DNA of 58,165 nt, from assembly GCA_947175425.1 (NCBI GenBank), contig CAMWMR010000016.1:1-58165 (forward strand). The letters are read 5' to 3'. Origin of the DNA: an uncultured Porphyromonadaceae bacterium (GTDB lineage: Bacteria; Bacteroidota; Bacteroidia; Bacteroidales; Muribaculaceae). Under the pieces are notes generated by a model, which saw only the letters and a list, made by a program, of their open reading frames with translations, ran no database searches and was not told the DNA's origin. The position numbers and the translations under genes are program-made. Shown in pieces: positions 1,917 to 13,589 of this stretch (the stretch's first letter is position 1; every line of letters begins with the position of its first letter).

Positions 1917-3239
1917 ATGACACATTTCAGAAAAGCAATGGCTGTTGCAGCCATTGCCGCAATTCCTTTCGGCGCTGCTGCCGAAGGCTACCAGGTCAAC
2001 ACCCTCAGCGCACGCCAGAACGGTATGGGACATACCGGAACTGCAATGCACCTTGGAGCCGAGAGCATGATTTTCAACCCTGCCGGCCTCGGATTCCTCA
2101 ACAAGACTCTTGAATTCCAAGGCTCGGTAACAGGTATCTTCGCAACCGCACACGCAACTGTCGACGGTGTAAAATACACAACATCCAACACTCCGTCAAC
2201 CCCAATGGCATTTAACCTCGGCATGAAAGTTTACGATAACTTCAAAGCCGGTGTAAGCTTCTACACACCCTACGGAAGCGGTATCAACTGGGGCGACAAC
2301 TGGCCCGGAGCAGTACTCAACCAAAGCGTGACACTCCGCGCATTCACAGTACAGCCCACCTTGGCATGGGAAATCATCCCCGGCCTGTCGGTAGGCGCAG
2401 GAGCAATGGTGAGCTTTGGAACCGTCGACCTCAACAAAGGCCTTGTGTCACCCGAATCCATGAACACCATTCTGGAAATGAGCGGCAGCGATTACCGCTT
2501 CACCGACACTCCGGCATCCATAAATCTGCAGGGACGCACCGCAACCACCGTAGGTGTCAACCTTGGCGCAATGTGGGACATAAACGAAAAAATTACCGTG
2601 GGCGTATCGTGGCGCAGCAAAATGAATCTCACCGTAAAATGCGGCGACGCTTCTTTGCGCTATGCAAACGAAATTGCACGCAATCTGCTGCAAGACAAAC
2701 TTAACGTATTGGACCAGGCTAATTTCAAAGCTACAATGCCCGCCGTTTCGGTACTCAACTTCGGCGTCTCCTACAAGCCTGTAAAACGACTCATCCTCGC
2801 CTTCGATGCCCAGCTGTCGGGATGGGGCGCTTATAAAAACCTTGATATCGAGTTCCTGAGCGAACAGCTTTCACCCTACAACCAGCACCTGGAAAAGAAC
2901 TACAAAAACTCATGGACATTACACCTTGGCGCTCAGTACGATATCACAAAGCGTTTCCAGGGTCGTCTTGGTCTTATGGCCGACTTCTCGCCCGTAAACC
3001 AAAACTACTATAATCCCGAAACTCCGGGTATGACTAAAATAGAGCCTTCAATCGGTTTCAGTTTCTCGCCCGTAAAATACTTTGCCATTGATGCATCGCT
3101 CATGTACGTAGCAGGATTGGGCAAGGACAACGCAAGCTGCACCTACACAGACCTCCTTCTCAAAATGGACAAAACATTCACAGCCAACTACAGCACCTAC
3201 TCCTGGTGCCCCTCCATCGGCTTCCGCGTCAACTTCTGA
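1917..3239 (+). CDS. OmpP1/FadL family outer-membrane transporter
   Basis: A 440-aa beta-barrel protein of the FadL/TodX family, which carries hydrophobic molecules such as fatty acids across the outer membrane. A signal peptide (about residues 1-22, ending AAA) precedes the characteristic N-terminal hatch region with the NPAGL motif (near residue 55). Amphipathic strands follow throughout and the protein ends with an aromatic residue (RVNF), the usual barrel insertion signal. Bacteroidales homologues are often annotated as hemin receptors, which is not supported here. It lies 6 bp after the dehydrogenase gene and ends before a strong terminator. Confidence 0.88.
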   Translation: MTHFRKAMAVAAIAAIPFGAAAEGYQVNTLSARQNGMGHTGTAMHLGAESMIFNPAGLGFLNKTLEFQGSVTGIFATAHATVDGVKYTTSNTPSTPMAFNLGMKVYDNFKAGVSFYTPYGSGINWGDNWPGAVLNQSVTLRAFTVQPTLAWEIIPGLSVGAGAMVSFGTVDLNKGLVSPESMNTILEMSGSDYRFTDTPASINLQGRTATTVGVNLGAMWDINEKITVGVSWRSKMNLTVKCGDASLRYANEIARNLLQDKLNVLDQANFKATMPAVSVLNFGVSYKPVKRLILAFDAQLSGWGAYKNLDIEFLSEQLSPYNQHLEKNYKNSWTLHLGAQYDITKRFQGRLGLMADFSPVNQNYYNPETPGMTKIEPSIGFSFSPVKYFAIDASLMYVAGLGKDNASCTYTDLLLKMDKTFTANYSTYSWCPSIGFRVNF

Positions 3240-3258
3240 TACAATACTAAAAATTCGC

Positions 3259-3298
3259 GAGGCTGTGTCGTAAACTTTACGGCACAGCCTCTTTTTTT
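3259..3298 (+). terminator. Intrinsic terminator after the FadL-like gene
   Basis: A 15-bp stem with one wobble pair (3259-3273 with 3277-3291), a 3-nt loop and seven T at 3292-3298. It also insulates the upstream genes from the leftward promoter in the neighbouring invertible segment. Confidence 0.92.
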
Positions 3299-3315
3299 GT
3301 TTAGCAATCATCCAA

Positions 3316-3332
3316 ATCTCTTAGTAGGAGAT
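3316..3332. repeat. Left inverted repeat of the invertible segment
   Basis: A 17-bp repeat whose exact reverse complement is at 3502-3518. The bases immediately outside and inside the pair do not match, so 17 bp is its full perfect extent. Confidence 0.9.
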
Positions 3333-3501
3333 GCTTAAAATTTTTTGCAAAGTTACTAAAAACTTTTGATATAAAGAACATCAACAATAATTTTTCCGTC
3401 TTCATTCCATCTGTTTGTCGCATTAAAAATGAGATCTGTTTAGGAAAACAGGAACTTCATAAATGCAACAAGTTGATAATTAGCTTAAAAGCCGAATCAC
3501 A

Positions 3502-3518
3502 ATCTCCTACTAAGAGAT
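3502..3518. repeat. Right inverted repeat of the invertible segment
   Basis: Exact reverse complement of 3316-3332. It lies 251 bp before the first pilus gene's ATG. Confidence 0.9.
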
Positions 3519-3769
3519 ACTTGAAGTTAAACCTAACCAACTCTTCATCAAATGGATAATCATTGTAAATTTACCACTATAATATTGCAGCTTGCATTAT
3601 TCTGCTGCCTGTTTACGGCATATGGCCTGTTGGTTGAATTAGATTTTACTAATAATCTGCAAATTGAGTGACTTTTTCACTTATAAATATTTAGAATTTT
3701 AATTCAATCAACTATATATACCGCATTATCATTTCTCATCAAGCGGCTGTAGCAACTATTCCCTCCAAT
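3519..3769 (+). other. Promoterless leader of the pilus operon
   Basis: AT-rich 251 bp between the right inverted repeat and the DUF3575 gene. I find no TTTG/TAnnTTTG promoter in it. The nearest match, TAATATTG at 3580-3587, has one mismatch and no correctly spaced -33 element. No open reading frame of note. Confidence 0.5.
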
Positions 3770-4354
3770 ATGAAATTCAGACATCTGCTCATCGTTCTTG
3801 GCCTGCTATCCTCCACCGCGCCGGCAGTGCACGCACAGGAGGTGGCGATAAAGTCCAATCTCATCTACGATGCACTACTCTCTCCCAACCTCGGCGTTGA
3901 AGTTGGCATTGCTCCAAAATGGACTGCCGAACTGTCGGGCACAGTCAACAACTGGGCTATCAACAACCGGCAATGGAAGCAATGGAATGTGCAGCCCGAG
4001 ATACGCTATTGGATTTGTCGCCGTTTCAGCGGACATTTCTTCGCCGCCCATATAATTGGCGGACAGTACAATTTCGGCAATCTCAAAAACAACATCAAGT
4101 TTCTCGGTACGGATTTCTCCGACCTGACCGACCACCGCTATCAGGGATGGATGGCCGGAGCCGGACTGGCATATGGCTATTCATGGATTTTGAGCCGACA
4201 CTGGAACCTGGAGGCCGAGCTCGGACTGGGTTGGATCTACACACGCTCCGATGTCTACAGATGTGCTAACTGCGGCAAGAAAATACGCAGCAATGTACCT
4301 CACAATTATGCAGGTCCCACAAAAGCGGCACTGAATATCGTTTATTCATTCTAA
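3770..4354 (+). CDS. DUF3575 family protein, first gene of the pilus operon
   Basis: A 194-aa exported protein with a signal peptide (residues 1-22, ending VHAQ) and a run of alternating amphipathic strands with many aromatic residues, finishing in YSF. This suggests a small outer-membrane barrel. It resembles the DUF3575 proteins that commonly stand at the head of Bacteroidales fimbrial loci beside a DUF3868 protein. Their precise role is not established; export or assembly of pilins at the outer membrane is an inference from position. Two cysteines (CANC, near residue 165) could form a disulfide. The next gene starts 7 bp downstream. Confidence 0.75.
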   Translation: MKFRHLLIVLGLLSSTAPAVHAQEVAIKSNLIYDALLSPNLGVEVGIAPKWTAELSGTVNNWAINNRQWKQWNVQPEIRYWICRRFSGHFFAAHIIGGQYNFGNLKNNIKFLGTDFSDLTDHRYQGWMAGAGLAYGYSWILSRHWNLEAELGLGWIYTRSDVYRCANCGKKIRSNVPHNYAGPTKAALNIVYSF

Positions 4355-4361
4355 AACGGCC

Positions 4362-5876
4362 ATGTCAATAATGAAACGCAACTTATCAACAATAGCAGCC
4401 TGCACGATATGCGCCGCCGGTGCATTGGCCGCAACTCCTGCCTTAAAAATATACGACATCAACGTAAATGTCGACGAGGCAACCCGGAAGCTCGATGTAG
4501 ACATCGACATGAAAATGGACGAGATAAAACTCGGCAGCAACCGGGAAGTGATATATACTCCCATCATTATTGCAGCCAACGGCACCGACAGCCTCGAACT
4601 CGACCCCGTGACAGTATGCGGCCGCAACAGCTGGTATGCCTACCTCCGTTCGGGCGCCCTCGACAGCGGCGACAGCAATATTTTCCGCAGCGGCACCAAA
4701 GTCACCGCGCACATAACGCAGAGTATCCCCTTTGAAGATTGGATGGGACACTCGACTGTAGAAATGCGACAGCAGGAGACCTCATGCTGCAGCCCGCTGA
4801 AACTCATCCAAGGTCCGTCGGCACACGGAAACGTTGAGCTTGCACAGATTAACACCGCACGCCCCACACTTGTGCTCGACTTTGTGTACTCTCCTCCGGT
4901 CGATGACAAGCCCGTAGAGAAAAACATCGAAGGAAAAGCGTTTGTGTCGTTCGTGGTTAACCGCACAGAGCTCAAGCCCGACTACATGGTCAACCGTCGG
5001 GAGATTGCCAAGATTCTCAACTCTATTGACTACGTGCGGCAGGACAGCGATGCCGTCATTACAGGTGTGCACATCAAAGGTTTTGCGTCGCCCGAAGGAT
5101 CCTACACCAACAACACTCGCCTGGCAAAAGGCCGTACAGCCACCCTTGCCGGATATGTGCGCGAGCAGTATCACTTCCCCGACGGAATGATAACAACATC
5201 GTACGACCCCGAGGATTGGGCAGGCCTGCGCAACTATCTCACCGACTCGCTCGACTACAACATCGCCAACCGTGCCGAGATAATAGACATTATCGACGGT
5301 CCTTTGGGCTTCGATGCGAAGGACATGGCGATTAAGACGCGTTTCCCGCAAGACTATCAAGTGATTCTCAAAGAGATATACCCCTGGCTGCGACACTCCG
5401 ACTACACGGTGAAATACCGCATAAAGGTCTACACCGACCTTGCGGAAATCTTGAGAGCATACAACAGCGACCCCTCGCGACTGCGCCCTGTCGACTTCTA
5501 CACCATCGCACAGCAGCACGACGAAGGCAGCCCCGAATATAACAAAGTGATGCAGACCGCCGTCAAGGTCTATCCCGATGACCCCATGCTCAACCTCAAT
5601 GCCGCCAACACCGCGCTTAAGAACGGCTATCTTACATCCGCACAGGAATATCTCAACAAGGCCGGCAACTCGCCCGAGGCCAATTTCGCCCGAGGCATAC
5701 TTGCCGCCATGCTCGGCAGCCTCAACGAAGCAACGCAACGATTCCAAGAAGCACGTGCGTGCGGAATAACAAAGGCCGACGCTTACCTCCGGCAGATTCA
5801 GGAACTGCGCGACTTCAACCCGGTAACCATAACCGTCGAAACCACGCGCTCCGAAGATCAAGAAGGCCAACAATAA
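4362..5876 (+). CDS. DUF3868 family pilus-locus protein with OmpA-like segment
   Basis: A 504-aa exported protein (signal peptide about residues 1-24; an alternative start is Met4). The N-terminal 180 residues are beta-rich and fit DUF3868. Residues about 195-275 resemble an OmpA C-terminal peptidoglycan-binding fold (GFASPEGSYTNN...LAKGRTATL). The last 130 residues are helical with TPR-like repeats. Such proteins pair with DUF3575 in fimbrial loci and may anchor a pilus-related outer-membrane structure to the cell wall. That function is inferred from domains and context. Genes on either side are 7 bp and 42 bp away on the same strand. Confidence 0.75.
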   Translation: MSIMKRNLSTIAACTICAAGALAATPALKIYDINVNVDEATRKLDVDIDMKMDEIKLGSNREVIYTPIIIAANGTDSLELDPVTVCGRNSWYAYLRSGALDSGDSNIFRSGTKVTAHITQSIPFEDWMGHSTVEMRQQETSCCSPLKLIQGPSAHGNVELAQINTARPTLVLDFVYSPPVDDKPVEKNIEGKAFVSFVVNRTELKPDYMVNRREIAKILNSIDYVRQDSDAVITGVHIKGFASPEGSYTNNTRLAKGRTATLAGYVREQYHFPDGMITTSYDPEDWAGLRNYLTDSLDYNIANRAEIIDIIDGPLGFDAKDMAIKTRFPQDYQVILKEIYPWLRHSDYTVKYRIKVYTDLAEILRAYNSDPSRLRPVDFYTIAQQHDEGSPEYNKVMQTAVKVYPDDPMLNLNAANTALKNGYLTSAQEYLNKAGNSPEANFARGILAAMLGSLNEATQRFQEARACGITKADAYLRQIQELRDFNPVTITVETTRSEDQEGQQ

Positions 5877-5918
5877 CAAACCGAAACAAACAAATCATTT
5901 ATCAATATCATCTCTTTT

Positions 5919-7727
5919 ATGAAAAATCTTTCAAAAGTACTCCTCGGGCTCGCAGTTGCCTCCATGGCATCCTGCTCGAACGACGAGCCCACACCCGTCA
6001 CTCCCGATATCAACGGTGATGGAACAACCTTCTACCTGAATGTCAACATCCAGAGCGCGTTGACTTCGCGTGCTCAGGCCGATGAAACATTCGAGTCCGG
6101 TACAGCCGACGAACACACCGTAAGCAATGCCTGGTTCCTCTTCTACGACAAAGACGGCAACTACCGCTTCCGCTCCAATGGCTTTGTTCCCTCCGATGAC
6201 AGCAACATGCCCAACGTTGAATACATGGGACGAAACACTATTGTGCTCAACAACATCAAGGACAACAACAAACCCGCCTACCTCATCACCATTCTCAACG
6301 CATCGCAGGCCACAGTCGACGAAATCGAGAACCGTGCCCTCAGCATGGAGGATACACGCAAGCTCCTTCTCGACATCCGTGTAGGCGACAGCGGCCTCTT
6401 CACAATGACTACCTCAAGCTTCATTCCTGAAGCCGATGACCCCGACTACGATGCCAAGTACTACTACGCCAACAAACTCGACGACAGCTACTTCATGACA
6501 GAGCCAAAAACTGAAGTCGCTCCCGGCGACCCTGTTGTCAACATTTATGTCGAACGTCTTGCCGTGAAATTCTCTATCTCGGGGCTCGATACCAACAACG
6601 TTTTCCCTGTAACCGCCACTATCGCCGGTCTTGACAACGGCAACATCGACGGCACAAACCAGGATGCTACCAAGCTCTATGTGAAGATTCTCGGCTACGG
6701 ACTCACCGGACAGGAAAAGAATTCGTACTTCTCGAAAAACATCGACGGCTTCGACACTGCACAACCCTGGCCCGACAACGTCGGCAGCGGTGAATGGAAT
6801 ACTCCCGTGTGGCGACGCAGCTTCTGGGCAAAGAGTGTTGGCTATGATTCTGAAGCCGACCTCACCTATACGGCTTTCAAGGACGCTCAAAACACAGTTT
6901 CGAAACCCATCTACGGCCACGAAACAACCAACACACTCGACTACATCACAACCGATAACGGTTCTCTTCGCCTCAGCAGCGTGACAAACGTCATCTTCAC
7001 CGCTCAGGTATATTCCGACGAAGACTGCACCATGCCTGTTGACTTTGTTCAGTACGGCGGTCTTTACTACACCTACGACTACTTCAAGACCTTTGTGCTC
7101 GCACGCCTCAACGCCACCGGCGACCTCAACTACTACACCCGCGAAACACTACCCGACACAGGTACCGGCGAAGAAAACGATCCTATTGTACATCACTACA
7201 AATACACTCAGGTTTCGGCCGACAACTTCGCTTTCCGCAAAAAGAACGACGGCAAGACAGCCACTATTGAAGTATACTGCACTCTCGATGACAACACCGA
7301 ACTCTACAGTAAAAACAGCGGAATTAGCGACAGCGACGACACCGATAAAAACTGGTCTCTCATCGACAACGGTGTGGCTAATGTCAACACTCAGATAGCC
7401 GGCTTCATCGGCGATACCAAGCTCACCGCATCGACCAACGGCGCGACATTCTACAGTGTGCCTATCGAACACCAGCTCGGCAAAGGCCAGACTACAAACT
7501 ACACCGTCACCGAACTCGGCGAATATGGCGTAGTGCGCAACCACTGGTATCAGCTCGAAATCGGCAAAGTGTTCCGCCTCGGTTCTGCCGTGTTTATCCC
7601 CGAAGAAGACGAAGGTCAGACTCCCGAACCCATTATCCCCGAAGATCCCTCGGAAGATACATATGCTCTCGCAGCCCAAATCAACATCCTCTCGTGGAAG
7701 GTACTGACTCAGAACGTCGACCTCTGA
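5919..7727 (+). CDS. Mfa1/FimA-type major fimbrillin
   Basis: Probable shaft subunit of a type V pilus, 602 aa. It is made as a lipoprotein precursor with lipobox MASC (Cys19), and an Arg-Ala site (TSRA, Arg51) sits about 32 residues later. In Porphyromonas pilins an Arg-specific protease cuts at such a site to release the donor strand for polymerization. The N-terminal domain is followed by a long beta-rich domain, and the C-terminus (INILSWKVLTQNVDL) has the conserved fimbrillin ending. A hairpin and a 219-bp gap follow, compatible with higher expression than the downstream minor subunits. It is larger than FimA (about 380 aa), closer to Mfa1 in size. Confidence 0.85.
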   Translation: MKNLSKVLLGLAVASMASCSNDEPTPVTPDINGDGTTFYLNVNIQSALTSRAQADETFESGTADEHTVSNAWFLFYDKDGNYRFRSNGFVPSDDSNMPNVEYMGRNTIVLNNIKDNNKPAYLITILNASQATVDEIENRALSMEDTRKLLLDIRVGDSGLFTMTTSSFIPEADDPDYDAKYYYANKLDDSYFMTEPKTEVAPGDPVVNIYVERLAVKFSISGLDTNNVFPVTATIAGLDNGNIDGTNQDATKLYVKILGYGLTGQEKNSYFSKNIDGFDTAQPWPDNVGSGEWNTPVWRRSFWAKSVGYDSEADLTYTAFKDAQNTVSKPIYGHETTNTLDYITTDNGSLRLSSVTNVIFTAQVYSDEDCTMPVDFVQYGGLYYTYDYFKTFVLARLNATGDLNYYTRETLPDTGTGEENDPIVHHYKYTQVSADNFAFRKKNDGKTATIEVYCTLDDNTELYSKNSGISDSDDTDKNWSLIDNGVANVNTQIAGFIGDTKLTASTNGATFYSVPIEHQLGKGQTTNYTVTELGEYGVVRNHWYQLEIGKVFRLGSAVFIPEEDEGQTPEPIIPEDPSEDTYALAAQINILSWKVLTQNVDL

Positions 7728-7755
7728 TAAATATTATTTTTACAAACTGAAAGCT

Positions 7756-7782
7756 CCCTCCGGTAACCCTGTTCCCGGAGGG
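7756..7782 (+). terminator. Hairpin after the major fimbrillin gene (partial terminator or stabilizer)
   Basis: An 8-bp GC-rich stem (CCCTCCGG at 7756-7763 with 7775-7782) lies 28 bp after the stop codon, with only a short T-run (CTTTCC) behind it. It is too weak for full termination; attenuation or 3'-end protection of the major-subunit mRNA would fit. Confidence 0.5.
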
Positions 7783-7946
7783 CTTTCCTAAAACTCTCAT
7801 CTCAGCGGCGATTTCAGCCGCTACGTTCTCTCCTCCGCGGTACAAAACCGCACTTTCACAGCAAACTCATTCCGGAAAAGACTCTTTCTCCTCATTTTTA
7901 AACCGACAACAAAGAGAGCCTCTGCGGCTCCTCAACATACAGCACA

Positions 7947-9008
7947 ATGAACCTCTCAAAAAAAATCACACGCTTTGCAATGACACTGCTCGCCGCCTCT
8001 GCCACAGCTCTGTGCGGTTGCAGCGACAGCTTCATCTTCGACTACGAAGGCGACTGCGATCCCAAATATCGTGTGAGACTGCACTACAACTATCACCTGA
8101 AGCAGGCCGATGCCTTCCCTTATGAGGTGAAGCACGTGACACTCAATGTCATCGACGAAGCAGGGCGCATTGTGCACACTCTGCACGAAAGCGGCGACGC
8201 TCTCGCCGACCCTGCGTACGAGATAGTGCTCGACAACATGCTACCTCCCGGAAATTATCGTCTTCAGGCCTGGTGCGGCGAGGGCGCAATGCCCGGAAGC
8301 ACATCTTTCGCCATACACGACGCCGAATACCTCGAAGATCTCCGCTGCACACTCCTCCCCGACAACCCGGCACGCACCACTCCGGCTGCCGGAGCCGAAG
8401 GCACGCACGTGAGCCGTGAGATTAAGCCTCTGTTCCACGGGCTTACATCGTCGCTCGAATTCAAAGCGGACGAAGGTGTGCATTACTTCGACGTTGACCT
8501 CACAAAAAACACCAACACCATGGTGGTGAACCTCTCGCAGCTCTCGGCATCGCCCATGGATCCCGAGGCCTTCGATTTCGTGATTGTGGTCGACAATGCC
8601 CGAATGGAGCATGACAACACTATTATTCCCGCCGAGGTTGTCACCTACCACGCCCACCATTCGTGGGGCGGCAACATTGACCTCGGTACCGATGCCGTCG
8701 AAGGCGACGTCATAGGTGTCTACAACTCCGTACAGGCCGAATTCTGCATTGGCCGACTTATGGAAGACTCCGGTGCTCGACTTGAAGTGTACCGACGCGA
8801 AGACAGCCGACGCGTGCTGTCGCTCGACATCGTGCAGTATGCCGACAAAGTCCGCTCGATGAGCAACGGCTCGATGCCTCTTCAGGAATACCTCGACCGT
8901 CAGGACGAGTATGTGTGGACTTTCTTCCTCGATTCCGGCTACCGCTGGATCAACACATTCATCTATATCAACTCCTGGAAGATTATAGTTCAGGACGCCG
9001 ATCTCTGA
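7947..9008 (+). CDS. FimB/Mfa2-family pilus anchor lipoprotein
   Basis: A 353-aa lipoprotein (lipobox LCGC, Cys25) resembling FimB/Mfa2, the subunit that stays lipidated at the outer membrane and anchors or terminates the pilus. As expected for an anchor, no Arg-Ala processing site follows the lipid cysteine, unlike the other three fimbrial subunits here. Cys-Asp-Pro after the N-terminus and the RLHYNYHLKQADAF stretch match the family. The C-terminus, INSWKIIVQDADL, parallels that of the major fimbrillin. The next gene starts after 7 bp. Confidence 0.85.
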   Translation: MNLSKKITRFAMTLLAASATALCGCSDSFIFDYEGDCDPKYRVRLHYNYHLKQADAFPYEVKHVTLNVIDEAGRIVHTLHESGDALADPAYEIVLDNMLPPGNYRLQAWCGEGAMPGSTSFAIHDAEYLEDLRCTLLPDNPARTTPAAGAEGTHVSREIKPLFHGLTSSLEFKADEGVHYFDVDLTKNTNTMVVNLSQLSASPMDPEAFDFVIVVDNARMEHDNTIIPAEVVTYHAHHSWGGNIDLGTDAVEGDVIGVYNSVQAEFCIGRLMEDSGARLEVYRREDSRRVLSLDIVQYADKVRSMSNGSMPLQEYLDRQDEYVWTFFLDSGYRWINTFIYINSWKIIVQDADL

Positions 9009-9015
9009 TATATTA

Positions 9016-10167
9016 ATGAAATCTCTGCCAAAAAATATATACCTGTCTGTCATCGCGGCGCTTGCAGCGGCATGCGCGTCTACCTCAGACGCCCCTGTAG
9101 AGCCGGAAGGAGGCGACAAGCCGCTTGCCATGGGTCTGTATGTCACCGTCAGCGACGAGTTACCGTCGCGGGCTACCCCCGAGGGCGATTACAACCGTGG
9201 CGAAGGCAACGAGAACTACATCGACCTCACCATGGGCAACCCCGATGTCAGAGTCCTGGTCTATGACACAGACAACCGCCTTGTGCTGGACATCGACAAC
9301 CCGCTTGTAACTCCTTACGAAAGCTATGCCGGCTCAAAGACCTATCTGCTCCAATTCGAGGTAGACAACGATTTCCGCGAGGCCTTCGAAGGTAAGTCGT
9401 TCAAACTTGTTATGATGGCAAACTTCCGCCACAGCTACAACGTTGCCGCCAATCTGAGCAATCTCTCCGTCGAAACAGGTGTACGCGCTCTCTATTCCGG
9501 CCCTCCGACTCCCCTTGTCGATACTTCCGAACCCATAATGATGTATGGCGTGAGCAGCTTCGGCAACATAACCTTCGAGAAAAACATGCTCAACATAATG
9601 GGCACGCTTCATCTGCTGAGAGCCATGGCAAAAATCGAGGTTTTCGACGCACCGTCGTCACTGCCCGTGAAAAAGGTGACTCTCACACGGCACAACTCCG
9701 AATTTTACCCCGTGCCGGCCAATGTGACGCATCAGGACGACTATGTGAAAGGCAACTACGACGATGACTACACCCTCAGGCCTACCACCGGCCCCACCGA
9801 CGAGCCTTTTAGATACGAAAGTGCCGAGCCGACAGTGCTCAACAGTATCAAAGACAGCAACGGCCTCAGTCATTATATAATATACGTGCCTGAATATGCC
9901 AACCTCGGCGTAGACGGCAACCCGCGCCTCGAAGATAAAAGAGCGCGACTTCAGCTCGATTACGAAACCGGAACCTTCTTCATCGACTTCAAATACTACG
10001 GCGGTACCAACGCCGGACGCCATTTCAACATAATGCGCAACTGGTGGTACCGTTTTGAAGTCAACGTAGGAGAATCTTCGCCCGAGGTAACCGTTGATGT
10101 AATACCTTACGCCGCCGTCGACCTCGACCCATCGTTCGGCATATGCACCGACGAATGCCACCATTAA
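9016..10167 (+). CDS. Minor (tip-type) fimbrillin lipoprotein
   Basis: A 383-aa lipoprotein precursor (lipobox AAAC, Cys20) with an Arg-Ala site (PSRA, Arg52) placed as in the major fimbrillin. It is therefore probably processed and incorporated into the pilus rather than acting as the anchor. The motif IMRNWWYRFEVNVG near the end is the conserved fimbrillin pattern. Its place after the anchor gene and before the large DUF4906-type gene resembles the accessory tip subunits (FimC/FimD or Mfa3/Mfa4 equivalents), but which one cannot be decided from sequence alone. Confidence 0.72.
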   Translation: MKSLPKNIYLSVIAALAAACASTSDAPVEPEGGDKPLAMGLYVTVSDELPSRATPEGDYNRGEGNENYIDLTMGNPDVRVLVYDTDNRLVLDIDNPLVTPYESYAGSKTYLLQFEVDNDFREAFEGKSFKLVMMANFRHSYNVAANLSNLSVETGVRALYSGPPTPLVDTSEPIMMYGVSSFGNITFEKNMLNIMGTLHLLRAMAKIEVFDAPSSLPVKKVTLTRHNSEFYPVPANVTHQDDYVKGNYDDDYTLRPTTGPTDEPFRYESAEPTVLNSIKDSNGLSHYIIYVPEYANLGVDGNPRLEDKRARLQLDYETGTFFIDFKYYGGTNAGRHFNIMRNWWYRFEVNVGESSPEVTVDVIPYAAVDLDPSFGICTDECHH

Positions 10168-10202
10168 AAGGATAATCTTTAAAGGAGAAAACAACACAAG
10201 TC

Positions 10203-13200
10203 ATGACTCGCATAATATCATATACAGGTGCCCTGCTCGGCCTCCTTGCGGCGGCTCTGTCGATGACGCTCAGCTCTTGCGAAGACAGATTCGACTTCGG
10301 TGTCGGCGAAATTGAAGAGGGCGTCAGCACTGTAAGCGTACAGCTCGGTTTCAAGGCCTTCACTCCGGCTCTGACATCGCGTGCCCCCGGCGACGCCATT
10401 AAAAACATAAACACTCTTTGGGTTGTGATATACGACCGCGAGAGCAACTTCATGGAGAAACGTCAGATTACAGATTTCTCTACCGAGAAGCTCGTAAACA
10501 ACTCGCGCCCCGACGGCCTCCTCTCAAGCGAAACGGCAACCGGGCACGTGAGCTTCAACCTCACTCTGCACAACGGATACTACCGCATCTACGCCGTGGC
10601 CAACCACGACCTCGCCGCTGTCGACAACGACTATATAAGCACAATTCCTGCTCTCAAGGCCCTCGACCTGACGTGGAAAGACGGCGATGCCGCTGCCAAC
10701 GCGCAGATGTTCGGCTGGTTTGTGAACGGCGACAAGGACACTGACCACGGAGCCGACGCTCCCGTCGTGACAATCCGCGACAATTCATCTTCGCTGCACG
10801 CGTGGGTGCACCGCGCCGCTTCAAAAGTGACAATAGCCTTCGACACCGACAAGCTCAGCGAGGACGTGCGCATCTATCTCCACTCGGTTACAATCAAAGA
10901 CATTCCCACACATTGCTACCTGCACGACGAGAATGCCCCCGGCGACGACAGCTATACTCTCGACTCCGAGCTCACGCAGGGCGAAACAATATACTTTGGC
11001 GACGCAAAGCCCGGACAGACCGGCAAGGACGACCACCGGAGCTGGGCACGCATTCACTCGGGCGACTCGGTTTACGGCCTTTACAGCGACACTCACGGCT
11101 TGCCCGACGCGGGCATGAGCATTGCCGCCCGGCTCGCCCGAGAGCACTCCGACGAGGCTCCTGCACTCTATTTCTATGAAAATTTGCAGGGCTCGGGTAC
11201 TATTGGCACAGAGTCGGACAAGCGTCAGGACGTTTCAGGGAACAATGCCCAGGTAAGCTATCCCGACGGCGTTGATGAAGGCGACAAGGCATGGAAAGAC
11301 GCCAAACCATTCGGGACGTACATCGAAGTAAAAGGCTACTACGAGAACACAGGCCTCGCTTCGCCCGGCAAAGGCGACATAATCTACCGCTTCATGCTCG
11401 GAAAAGACATCACCACCGACTACAACGCCGAGCGTAACTACCATTACCGCCTCACCATGCGCTTCCACGGCAATGCCAACGACATCGATTTCCACATTGA
11501 CTACCGCGAGGAGGACAAGCCCGGCCTGTATGTGCAGGACACGACATATGTGTCGTATCTCTACAACCAGCCGTCACACACTGTGGTGCGTGCCACTCCA
11601 AAGCCCGGCTACGATCTGCTGAGCCTCGAGGCCTATATCCTCGACAATGAATGGCGCCCCTACTCCGAAATTCAGGACGACGCCGCCGGCATCGACGACC
11701 CCACACTCACACCACTCTACAACAAAAAAGCGTGGGACAGCCAACGCGCGCCCGACTCGAGACTATACCCTGCCACAGCAGGCGGATACACACGCCCCGA
11801 CTATAAAGTTGAATGGACCGATGACGCAGGCACCAAACATTCCGAAGCTTCGGCAAGAAACACAGAATTCGGCTTTCTATCGCTGCGCACCACATCGGTA
11901 CAGCTGTACGAGCTTCAGGGCAGTGGTGACAAAATGTCATTTCTTGCCCGTATGCGACGGCTCTATTTTCTTGGCGACAAGAACGGCAACGGCACAAAGG
12001 AGAAGAACTCGCGCGGCTACCGCAACTACGGTGACATGCCCACCGCGGACGGCACTACTACCGGCGGCGATGAAGAGAACGGATATTACACTATAACCCG
12101 CACTACGGGGCGTGTTGCCGCCACATCTGACTATGTTATGGAAATACCGTTATATACACGTGCACGAAGTATCGACTCCTGGGCTGTATATTCCGGTGCC
12201 AATCCTTTCTACCGCCATTACCGCTATGCGCGTGTGGCATTTTTGGCGACATACAAGAAATCGGCGTCCAACACCGACGCTTCGGCGCCCGCGCAGTATC
12301 AGGAAGTTGCCCAAACACACGTGCTTCAGGCTCGACGCATCGACAATCCACGAACCATTTACCGCCGTTACGACAACAAAGACCCGTTCTTCGTACAACT
12401 GTGCTACAACACTCTAACAGCCAAGGAACAGCTGGAGAACTTCATTTCCAACGATGCTGTGATATATCAGCCCATCATTTCGCGCGGCCCGTGGACGGCC
12501 ACAATCGAGCGCGATCCTCATGGCCTTGTCACTATCACTGCCAACGGACAGTCGGCCAAAGGCGAGGGCGCTTCCATCACGGGCAGGAACAATACTCCCA
12601 TTCAGTTCACCTACACGCCATCGGCATTCCCGTCCCAAAACGACTCGTACGGCGCCATAATTCTCGTTACCTACCATGGCAACAGTTGCACTCACAAAAT
12701 TATAGTGCGCCAAGGCTATGCGGCGCACACCATCGGCGGGGGCACTGCAAAATGGTCGGCGTTCAATGTGTACGACAGCGGCAACCTCACAAAATCGCCG
12801 CTATCCGTAGGCAGTATCTTCAGACGACACAGCGACCTCAGCTACCCCATAGCCGAAGAAAACAACTTCCGCACGGGCTATGGAGTGCTCCAGACTCCAT
12901 CCGGAACATTTAAAATCCTAAACAAATCACAGGAATCCACATGGAATGCCATTCCGGCAGTCACCGAAGCTTCCGACAACGACTTTAAAAGCATGAGCCT
13001 CTTCAGTCCGCACCTGCAAAAGAAGGCCACATACCGCATACCATCCTACACCGAGCTTCCGGACATCGGCATATATTCCGACAAGACATCCGATACTCCG
13101 CCCGCAACCGAAAAGAAGAAAGTGGAAGATATAGGCATGGCTTTCGGCATCGCATATGCCGACGGAGCAACCCGCACCCTCTACACGAAAGAAGCCTACA

Positions 13201-13589
13201 CCTACTCCGACATCGACAACACCGGCTCCGACTCCAAAAAGGGCGTACGTGGCGTAGCTGTTTACAGTCTTTCCAAAGGCGACAACGTATTCTTCCCTTT
13301 CGGCAGCTTTGGCAATCCCAGGCGCAGAAACGGAGGCATGCTGCAATATGCGTCCATTAACTTTAAACTTGACAGAGACAACAACTCCGACGACTACCGC
13401 CCCATGGCCTACGACCTCACGACTCACATCGGCGGCGTCTACTGGATTACAGCCAGCGATTCAAAACGTCATGTGGCAATCGACTACAACGGTGGCAACT
13501 ACATGTCAAGTTATCTGAACACCGACGACGTGTTTCAAACCGCAGGAGCTGCCGACGCAGCTCCCATCAAACCCATTCTCAACGAATAG
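10203..13589 (+). CDS. Large DUF4906-type fimbrial tip/adhesin-like lipoprotein
   Basis: A 1128-aa exported lipoprotein (lipobox LSSC, Cys26) with a TSRA Arg-Ala site near residue 60. The first third looks like a fimbrillin fold: a conserved N-terminal domain, GHVSFNLTLHNGYYRIYAVANH, and YHYRLTMRFHGN near 420. A long beta-rich C-terminal region follows, unlike the other subunits but consistent with the DUF4906 proteins that close Bacteroidales fimbrial loci. A tip adhesin or terminal subunit is the natural reading; the ligand is unknown. An AAAGGAG sequence about 15 bp before the ATG is Shine-Dalgarno-like. It is the last pilus gene and converges with the HU-like gene. Confidence 0.72.
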   Translation: MTRIISYTGALLGLLAAALSMTLSSCEDRFDFGVGEIEEGVSTVSVQLGFKAFTPALTSRAPGDAIKNINTLWVVIYDRESNFMEKRQITDFSTEKLVNNSRPDGLLSSETATGHVSFNLTLHNGYYRIYAVANHDLAAVDNDYISTIPALKALDLTWKDGDAAANAQMFGWFVNGDKDTDHGADAPVVTIRDNSSSLHAWVHRAASKVTIAFDTDKLSEDVRIYLHSVTIKDIPTHCYLHDENAPGDDSYTLDSELTQGETIYFGDAKPGQTGKDDHRSWARIHSGDSVYGLYSDTHGLPDAGMSIAARLAREHSDEAPALYFYENLQGSGTIGTESDKRQDVSGNNAQVSYPDGVDEGDKAWKDAKPFGTYIEVKGYYENTGLASPGKGDIIYRFMLGKDITTDYNAERNYHYRLTMRFHGNANDIDFHIDYREEDKPGLYVQDTTYVSYLYNQPSHTVVRATPKPGYDLLSLEAYILDNEWRPYSEIQDDAAGIDDPTLTPLYNKKAWDSQRAPDSRLYPATAGGYTRPDYKVEWTDDAGTKHSEASARNTEFGFLSLRTTSVQLYELQGSGDKMSFLARMRRLYFLGDKNGNGTKEKNSRGYRNYGDMPTADGTTTGGDEENGYYTITRTTGRVAATSDYVMEIPLYTRARSIDSWAVYSGANPFYRHYRYARVAFLATYKKSASNTDASAPAQYQEVAQTHVLQARRIDNPRTIYRRYDNKDPFFVQLCYNTLTAKEQLENFISNDAVIYQPIISRGPWTATIERDPHGLVTITANGQSAKGEGASITGRNNTPIQFTYTPSAFPSQNDSYGAIILVTYHGNSCTHKIIVRQGYAAHTIGGGTAKWSAFNVYDSGNLTKSPLSVGSIFRRHSDLSYPIAEENNFRTGYGVLQTPSGTFKILNKSQESTWNAIPAVTEASDNDFKSMSLFSPHLQKKATYRIPSYTELPDIGIYSDKTSDTPPATEKKKVEDIGMAFGIAYADGATRTLYTKEAYTYSDIDNTGSDSKKGVRGVAVYSLSKGDNVFFPFGSFGNPRRRNGGMLQYASINFKLDRDNNSDDYRPMAYDLTTHIGGVYWITASDSKRHVAIDYNGGNYMSSYLNTDDVFQTAGAADAAPIKPILNE

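Follow-up and report, generated by a model that had tools for sequence, protein, structure and literature searches.

The window, meaning here the whole stretch of 58,165 nucleotides that was analysed, is the entire contig C16 of a 2.5 Mb genome of an uncultured Muribaculaceae bacterium assembled in 64 contigs. Near its left end lies a six-gene pilus operon (3770-13589, plus strand), placed to the right of a pair of inverted repeats as an earlier note on this DNA had described. The operon codes for: a DUF3575 protein, its first gene (3770..4354; PF12099, E 1e-69); a DUF3868 protein (4362..5876; PF12984); an Mfa1-family major pilin with a Fimbrillin_C domain (5919..7727; PF15495 over the cut-off, NF038041 at 117 bits with a cut-off of 130); an Mfa2-family anchor pilin (7947..9008; PF08842, E 7e-43); a putative tip pilin or adhesin of 383 aa (9016..10167; weak FimD-like match to NF052322, 28.6 bits, cut-off 170); and a final protein of 1128 aa (10203..13589; sub-cut-off DUF4906 match). 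The combination of an Mfa1-type stalk pilin and an Mfa2-type anchor, with PF15495 and PF08842 both over their cut-offs, agrees with its designation as a type V pilus operon. To the left is a FadL-type gene, with 77 bp between its stop and the left repeat. An intrinsic terminator 3' of this gene (3259..3291, plus strand; 15-bp stem, 3-nt loop and T tract) would shield the repeats and what they enclose from its read-through. To the right a leader of 251 bp (3519..3769, plus strand) separates the repeats from the first pilus gene. It contains the end remnant of a mobile element (3633..3713), recognized by 68 bp that match an element present in many copies in relatives, with short terminal inverted repeats that were judged by eye only. 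This element is present in 11 near-identical copies at contig ends in genome G029.

The left repeat, ATCTCTTAGTAGGAGAT with the core AGT, occupies 3316..3332 on the plus strand, and the right repeat (3502..3518, minus strand) is its exact reverse complement: all 17 of 17 nucleotides are complementary, with 169 nt between the arms (3333..3501). The segment so bounded is short and intergenic, and the repeats, the promoter element within it and the behaviour of related sites suggest that it is invertible. The pair pattern has a single match in the window as against 0 in 100 dinucleotide shuffles. Both window sites have the form ATCTCTT-AGT-AGGAGAT. The earlier proposal of two inverted arms around an asymmetric core stands in outline, with different dimensions: the arms are 7 bp (ATCTCYT/ARGAGAT) and the free core is 3 bp, the arms of 5 bp and core of 7 bp first described having resulted from a mismatch between the 7-bp arms of the window pair. 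A scan of 3200-3800 against Rfam gave no match.

Within the segment there is just one exact copy of TAnnTTTG, as had been noted: the promoter -7 element TAACTTTG at 3348..3355 on the minus strand. It is close to one repeat only, 23 bp from the left one, and points left, away from the pilus operon. No good -33 TTTG is seen upstream of it. On the plus strand the region from 3333 to 3769 has no exact TAnnTTTG and six sites with one mismatch. One of these six, the weaker -7-like element TAATTTTT (3388..3395, plus strand), is preceded at 19 nt by an exact TTTG and faces right, in the direction of the operon. It may be a chance occurrence; sites of the TTTG-N19-TAATTTTT type arise on either strand in 11% of shuffles of the segment. 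The claim that the leader is devoid of a consensus promoter holds for the exact motif, and is qualified by one-mismatch sites at 3566, 3580 and 3640, none of which has a good -33. A scan for E. coli-type promoters found two sites as against 2.9 in shuffles. From the exact element we infer that the assembled state in the sequenced cells is OFF, as was first suggested; this state is perhaps not fully OFF, because the element at 3388, absent from the earlier account, faces the operon.

The same genome carries further sites of this kind. A search with up to three mismatches recovered a second inverted pair on contig C8 and a lone site on contig C47. At this stringency there are 6 and 5 matches to the site, as against 2 and 3 to the reversed-pattern control, and the former include one on C18 that is without a partner. 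The C8 pair, ATCTCTTTTTAAGAGAT/ATCTCTTAAAAAGAGAT (C8:62861-63060, repeats at 62861 and 63044, core TTT/AAA), contains TAACTTTG 21 bp from one repeat and adjoins the start of a gene for an UpxY antiterminator (NF033644, 113.8 bits, cut-off 100). In this second switch region (C8:62227-63060, equivalent to L009:7228-8061) the UpxY gene is on the minus strand, and the promoter is directed away from it, now facing an operon for Fe-S and aldo-keto reductase proteins 409 bp off. On C47 a tyrosine recombinase gene is interrupted by the contig end, and the lone site ATCTCTTATCAAGAGAT (C47:16366) follows its stop at ~75 bp. Contig C1 encodes an intact 401-aa copy of this enzyme with SAM_5 and Phage_integrase domains, 81% identical to the C47 copy over the shared part; no site of the family lies near it. 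There is no recombinase gene next to the switch in the window.

This last fact bears on the reading that the window pair is a frozen relic, i.e., once active and now either served by no recombinase or cut off from the pilus operon by the mobile-element remnant in the leader, such that the pilus is locked or otherwise driven. The truncation of the C47 copy by the contig end and the one-mismatch -7-like sequences of the segment and leader would suit it as well. An intact recombinase is nonetheless encoded on C1, the genome has another intact pair, and the window repeats are still complementary at all 17 positions, the free core among them, whereas a pair out of use should lose this match. We hence regard a relic as quite unlikely.

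By pattern match, the site family ATCTCYT-NNN-ARGAGAT occurs across Bacteroidales. Within the genus, 23 of 49 genomes contain the pattern ATCTCYTNNNARGAGAT (reversed-pattern control 0/49); in a sample of the family, strict pairs are found in 53 of 397 genomes and 11 of 30 genera (control 0/397); and named genomes contribute at least 119 stretches with a pair. The genera and MAG labels among the matches listed are Phocaeicola, Dysgonomonas, Parabacteroides, Bacteroides gallinarum, Alistipes, Prevotella and others. Also among the matches listed are five MAGs labelled outside Bacteroidales (L195, L211, L218, L259, L264), with the labels of L195 and L259 looking wrong because both are the same contigs as the genus member G019.

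The rules of the family were derived from 121 pairs in 87 assemblies, which were picked by a pattern that does not demand a match between cores, and which are not independent, many being paralogues or orthologues. The cores are complementary in 120 of the 121, where about 2 would be expected if they were random, and all 17 bp are complementary in 119; the one pair that breaks the core rule, L264, comes from a MAG with the label Flavobacteriaceae and is a direct repeat. At the same time the core itself is free to vary: 129 oriented segments contain 21 of the 32 possible core classes. The core is AGT in the pair of G135 and ACT in the orthologous pair of G160, indicating that both repeat copies changed together. 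Complementary cores that change jointly are what strand exchange via a matched overlap would produce. A TAnnTTTG element lies 17-26 bp from one repeat in 109 of the 121 pairs and from both repeats in none (200 letter shuffles: mean 1.8, maximum 5), and the window element at 23 bp is inside this range. A further 27 pairs come from the genus; in several, the nearby partner was admitted at up to three mismatches, and four (L126, L128, L130, L140) were found via a search beside recombinase genes. As such they are outside the counts of 120/121 and 109/121; some of the loci recur there via named records. These 27 are included in the 141 distinct segments considered below.

Nineteen assemblies carry more than one of the 121 pairs. 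The idea that each switch has a private 3-bp core barring cross-recombination is not supported: within assemblies, 47 of 67 comparisons pair identical cores (9/26 without three Phocaeicola genomes), as against 516 of 7193 between assemblies. Among the matches listed, Phocaeicola massiliensis has eight paralogous switches (L153, L154, L156, L202, L221, L256, L269) and P. faecalis five (L204, L222, L252, L261), in which the core is always AGT/ACT; such common cores would permit recombination between loci. Six of the eight P. massiliensis switches, again among the matches listed, are 78 bp before a gene for a 165-aa protein, which in L202, the one scanned, is of the AraC type; next to it comes a gene for a large putative surface protein. 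Three segments of P. vulgatus ATCC 8482 face genes that resemble, by eye, the L202 AraC-type gene and not upxY. No link was made to the inverted upxY promoter described for P. vulgatus CL10 (PMC13114119); the ATCC 8482 segments are without an HpaII site.

Homologues of the C1 recombinase are found within 700 bp of 32 of the 141 distinct segments, at a median distance of about 40 bp, and in all 32 cases the gene is convergent on the segment; with L126, L128, L130 and L140 dropped, the adjacency is 28 of 137. The convergence of an integrase-domain family on these segments supports the assignment of the repeat as a tyrosine-recombinase site, and the C1 copy places a member of this switch-adjoining family in the genome under study. 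A homologue of at least 60% identity, a threshold picked after the data were seen, is encoded by 19 of the 23 genus genomes with an exact site and by 10 of the 26 without (Fisher p = 0.003). The link between enzyme and site is thus a statistical one, because those ten genomes have a recombinase without an exact site, and 4 of the 23 with the site are without a homologue at this threshold. Three of the ten (G024, G046, G047) have degenerate pairs beside the recombinase. The 'DNA invertase cluster' model of NCBIfam matched none of ten proteins scanned.

Evidence for inversion comes from an all-against-all comparison of 188 loci followed by alignment of chosen pairs. The orthologous G135 and G160 loci have flanks in register, with identities of 83.2% and 77.5% over 400 bp each, and the intervening segment is 73.5% identical when inverted versus 51.4% when direct (shuffled 51.9%). 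A second orthologous pair, L199 and L237, gives a comparable picture (flanks 66.2% and 83.2%; segment 79.5% inverted versus 55.4% direct). A third pair, two loci within genome G383, has just one common flank, at 95%, and a segment at 91% inverted. The comparisons of L170 with L181, L244 and L351 are weak candidates (61-63% inverted, 55% direct). Across the screen an inverted segment was flagged in 27 of 236 homologous locus comparisons, many of the 27 being repeats of few loci or having one weak flank; the rest are in the same orientation and include several duplicate fetches of one locus. As read from these assemblies, the alignments show that members of the site family invert in nature in other species. 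Further, a contig end falls less than 100 bp from 10 of the 121 pairs, as against 1.2 expected, an excess that is as expected if both orientations are present, with other causes of contig ends possible.

Single sites of the family can extend into longer palindromes, the letters of which vary by locus (e.g., L162_6237, L187_6836, L105_5003). Of 263 distinct sites, 47 are palindromic at no fewer than 6 of 7 flank positions, where the control averages 1.3 and reaches 5 at most, and the flank palindrome is strongly orientation-dependent in 34 of 139 segments. A rule whereby the palindromic orientation equals ON or OFF was rejected: in the 23 of these segments for which a target could be called, that orientation is OFF in 13 and ON in 10. 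The palindromes invite the reading that the repeats never invert and instead serve as protein-binding or hairpin elements that attenuate or terminate transcription, the promoter between them staying fixed; earlier work described in PMC4747536, in which transcription in B. fragilis was lower with more repeats between promoter and gene, is in the same direction. At neither of the window's own two sites, however, does a palindrome extend beyond 17 bp; orthologous loci elsewhere have the segment inverted; and strand exchange requires matched cores such as are seen in 120 of 121 pairs. We therefore give very little credence to repeats that never recombine.

Orientation with respect to a target was called using a crude ORF finder, by which 83 of the 141 segments are callable, 57 as OFF and 26 as ON. 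Six switches face DUF3575 genes, and both orientations are represented: the window, L111 (from G044) and L166 are OFF; L117 (from G012), L200 and L220 are ON. In the five other than the window the switch faces the DUF3575 gene directly, at 42-125 bp. L220 has the recombinase, the switch and the DUF3575 gene in a row; L111 also has the DUF3868 gene; the L117 product is a longer, divergent DUF3575 protein; and L166, L200 and L220 were recognized by the first gene only, through similarity to the DUF3575 protein of the window. L111 has three sites (L111:3292-3549), with a duplicate of the right one at a distance of 34 bp, and they precede its DUF3575/DUF3868 operon. Thirty DUF3575 loci of the genus were fetched by similarity to the window gene, three of which (L277, L281, L301) have less than 750 bp of upstream DNA: a switch is upstream in just 2 of these 30, namely the window and G044, and a forward TAnnTTTG within about 600 bp in 12. 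Hence, switch control is not general for DUF3575 operons, and that of the window looks to have gained its switch.

These loci also help in judging whether the switch serves its left side, providing an antisense or small RNA against the FadL-type gene with the pilus not a target. The exact promoter element does point left, and the FadL-type stop is close to the left repeat. A strong terminator intervenes between the two, however; the 29 other DUF3575 loci of the genus did not show this FadL-type gene in the 1.5 kb ahead of them; and the five further switches of the family with a DUF3575 neighbour face that gene itself. A leftward function in place of control of the pilus is accordingly highly improbable.

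Several other gene neighbourhoods are associated with the family. Proteins combining a catalytically degenerate tyrosine-recombinase-like region with a C-terminal UpxY antiterminator are encoded beside switches at L100:5276-6751, L105:5373-6731, L182:108-1508, L183:6338-7999, L248:4050-5567, L257:1541-3166, L270:2916-4478 and L158:1880-3262, and in a cut form at L185:2-1516, the fusion being strongest in L100, L105, L183 and L257. These fusions may be a newer discovery than the pilus switch. In L101 (4953-9201) and L231 the switch precedes genes for a DUF4007 protein and a large protein weakly resembling STAND/AAA NTPases, possibly a phase-variable defence-like module. Two polysaccharide-export genes flank the switch at L109:4000-6200 and two TonB receptor-like genes that at L206:5873; with similar genes on both sides, inversion would select one or the other. 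At L106:1841-5254 the switch has on one side a gene that is close to one for polysaccharide biosynthesis and on the other a gene for a peptide-N-glycosidase F-like protein, and its promoter faces the latter.

The window switch belongs to an already known kind of element, the tyrosine-recombinase invertible promoter or inverton. Its likeness to the Bacteroides capsule promoters, raised at the outset, is borne out in layout and not in enzyme: the Mpi-controlled capsule promoters of B. fragilis are, like some of the switches reported here, invertible promoters upstream of UpxY-led operons, but Mpi is a serine recombinase, whereas the enzymes beside ATCTCYT-NNN-ARGAGAT sites carry a Phage_integrase domain and are of the Tsr kind. 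The repeat motif of Mpi is also not known to resemble ATCTCYT-NNN-ARGAGAT. Motifs of Bacteroidota invertons have reportedly been compiled by Jiang et al. in 2019. The present family may already be among the inverton groups of that study or of PMC11892184. The site motif was not found in the invertible-promoter literature searched; it may be published, the motif tables for invertons being figures and supplements.

Among characterized systems, the tyrosine recombinase Tsr19 (BF2766) of B. fragilis is described as inverting both a local promoter, beside its own gene, and a distant one (PMC4747536; PMC3090145). Its promoters have TAnnTTTG as in the window and its targets are surface polysaccharide and outer-membrane proteins; here, in contrast, the target is a pilus operon and the host is of another family, the two being likened by description and not by their repeats. 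With this layout in mind, we note that the C47 recombinase is beside a lone site and that the pairs are on C8 and C16. A phase-variable locus of B. fragilis encodes a protein matching a sequenced fimbrial protein (Weinacht et al., 2004, via PMC12632263); it is treated under type V pili in PMC12632263, according to which fimbriae could not be demonstrated there. It resembles the window, by description only, in that a tyrosine recombinase carries out an inversion for outer surface proteins. For a defined gut community it is reported that the regulatable neighbours of invertons are enriched in genes for fimbrillin, UpxY and TonB receptors, that FimB/Mfa2 genes were switched up on carriers, and that invertase genes adjoin Bacteroidota invertons out of the promoter's reach (PMC11892184); like the window, these invertons have an invertible promoter with the Bacteroidota -7 motif. 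For Muribaculaceae, a literature search on invertible DNA and phase variation found nothing beyond an assembler preprint.

Taking these lines together, we consider it very probable that 3316-3518 is a phase-variable invertible promoter of the six-gene type V pilus operon. This reading, already put forward in the earlier note, draws support from the second pair in its own genome, the site family, the convergent recombinases, the inverted orthologous segments and the occurrence of DUF3575-facing switches in both orientations. In the mechanism that we propose, a tyrosine recombinase of the switch-adjoining family would bind both inverted ATCTCTT-AGT-AGGAGAT sites, pair them through their identical cores and flip the 169-bp segment. 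As assembled, the promoter would fire left, towards the upstream gene's terminator region (OFF); once flipped, it would fire right, through the leader and into the DUF3575/Mfa1/Mfa2 operon (ON). The enzyme would be encoded elsewhere, on C1 or C47, and act in trans. For the window copy itself, we infer each of these steps: the inversion, the driving of the pilus by the flipped promoter and the action of a C1 or C47 enzyme in trans.

More tentatively, and with considerable doubt on our part, the pilus switch might be one output of an order-wide regulon, in which a class of trans-acting tyrosine recombinases reads ATCTCYT-NNN-ARGAGAT and flips pili, UpxY capsule-type operons, transporters and defence-like genes, several per cell; at some loci a catalytically dead recombinase-UpxY fusion would read the same DNA, thereby coupling orientation to elongation. 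The site rule, i.e., fixed 7-bp arms, a free matched 3-bp core and a -7 element some 21-23 bp inward of one repeat, makes it possible to list the switches of any Bacteroidales genome together with the state in which each is assembled, and the recombinase and site family constitute a defined enzyme-site pair for testing. To our knowledge, the pili of Muribaculaceae have received little study. Should the switch work, whether one of these bacteria adheres would be settled by chance and inherited by its descendants, and a capsule-type operon of the same genome would use the same kind of site.
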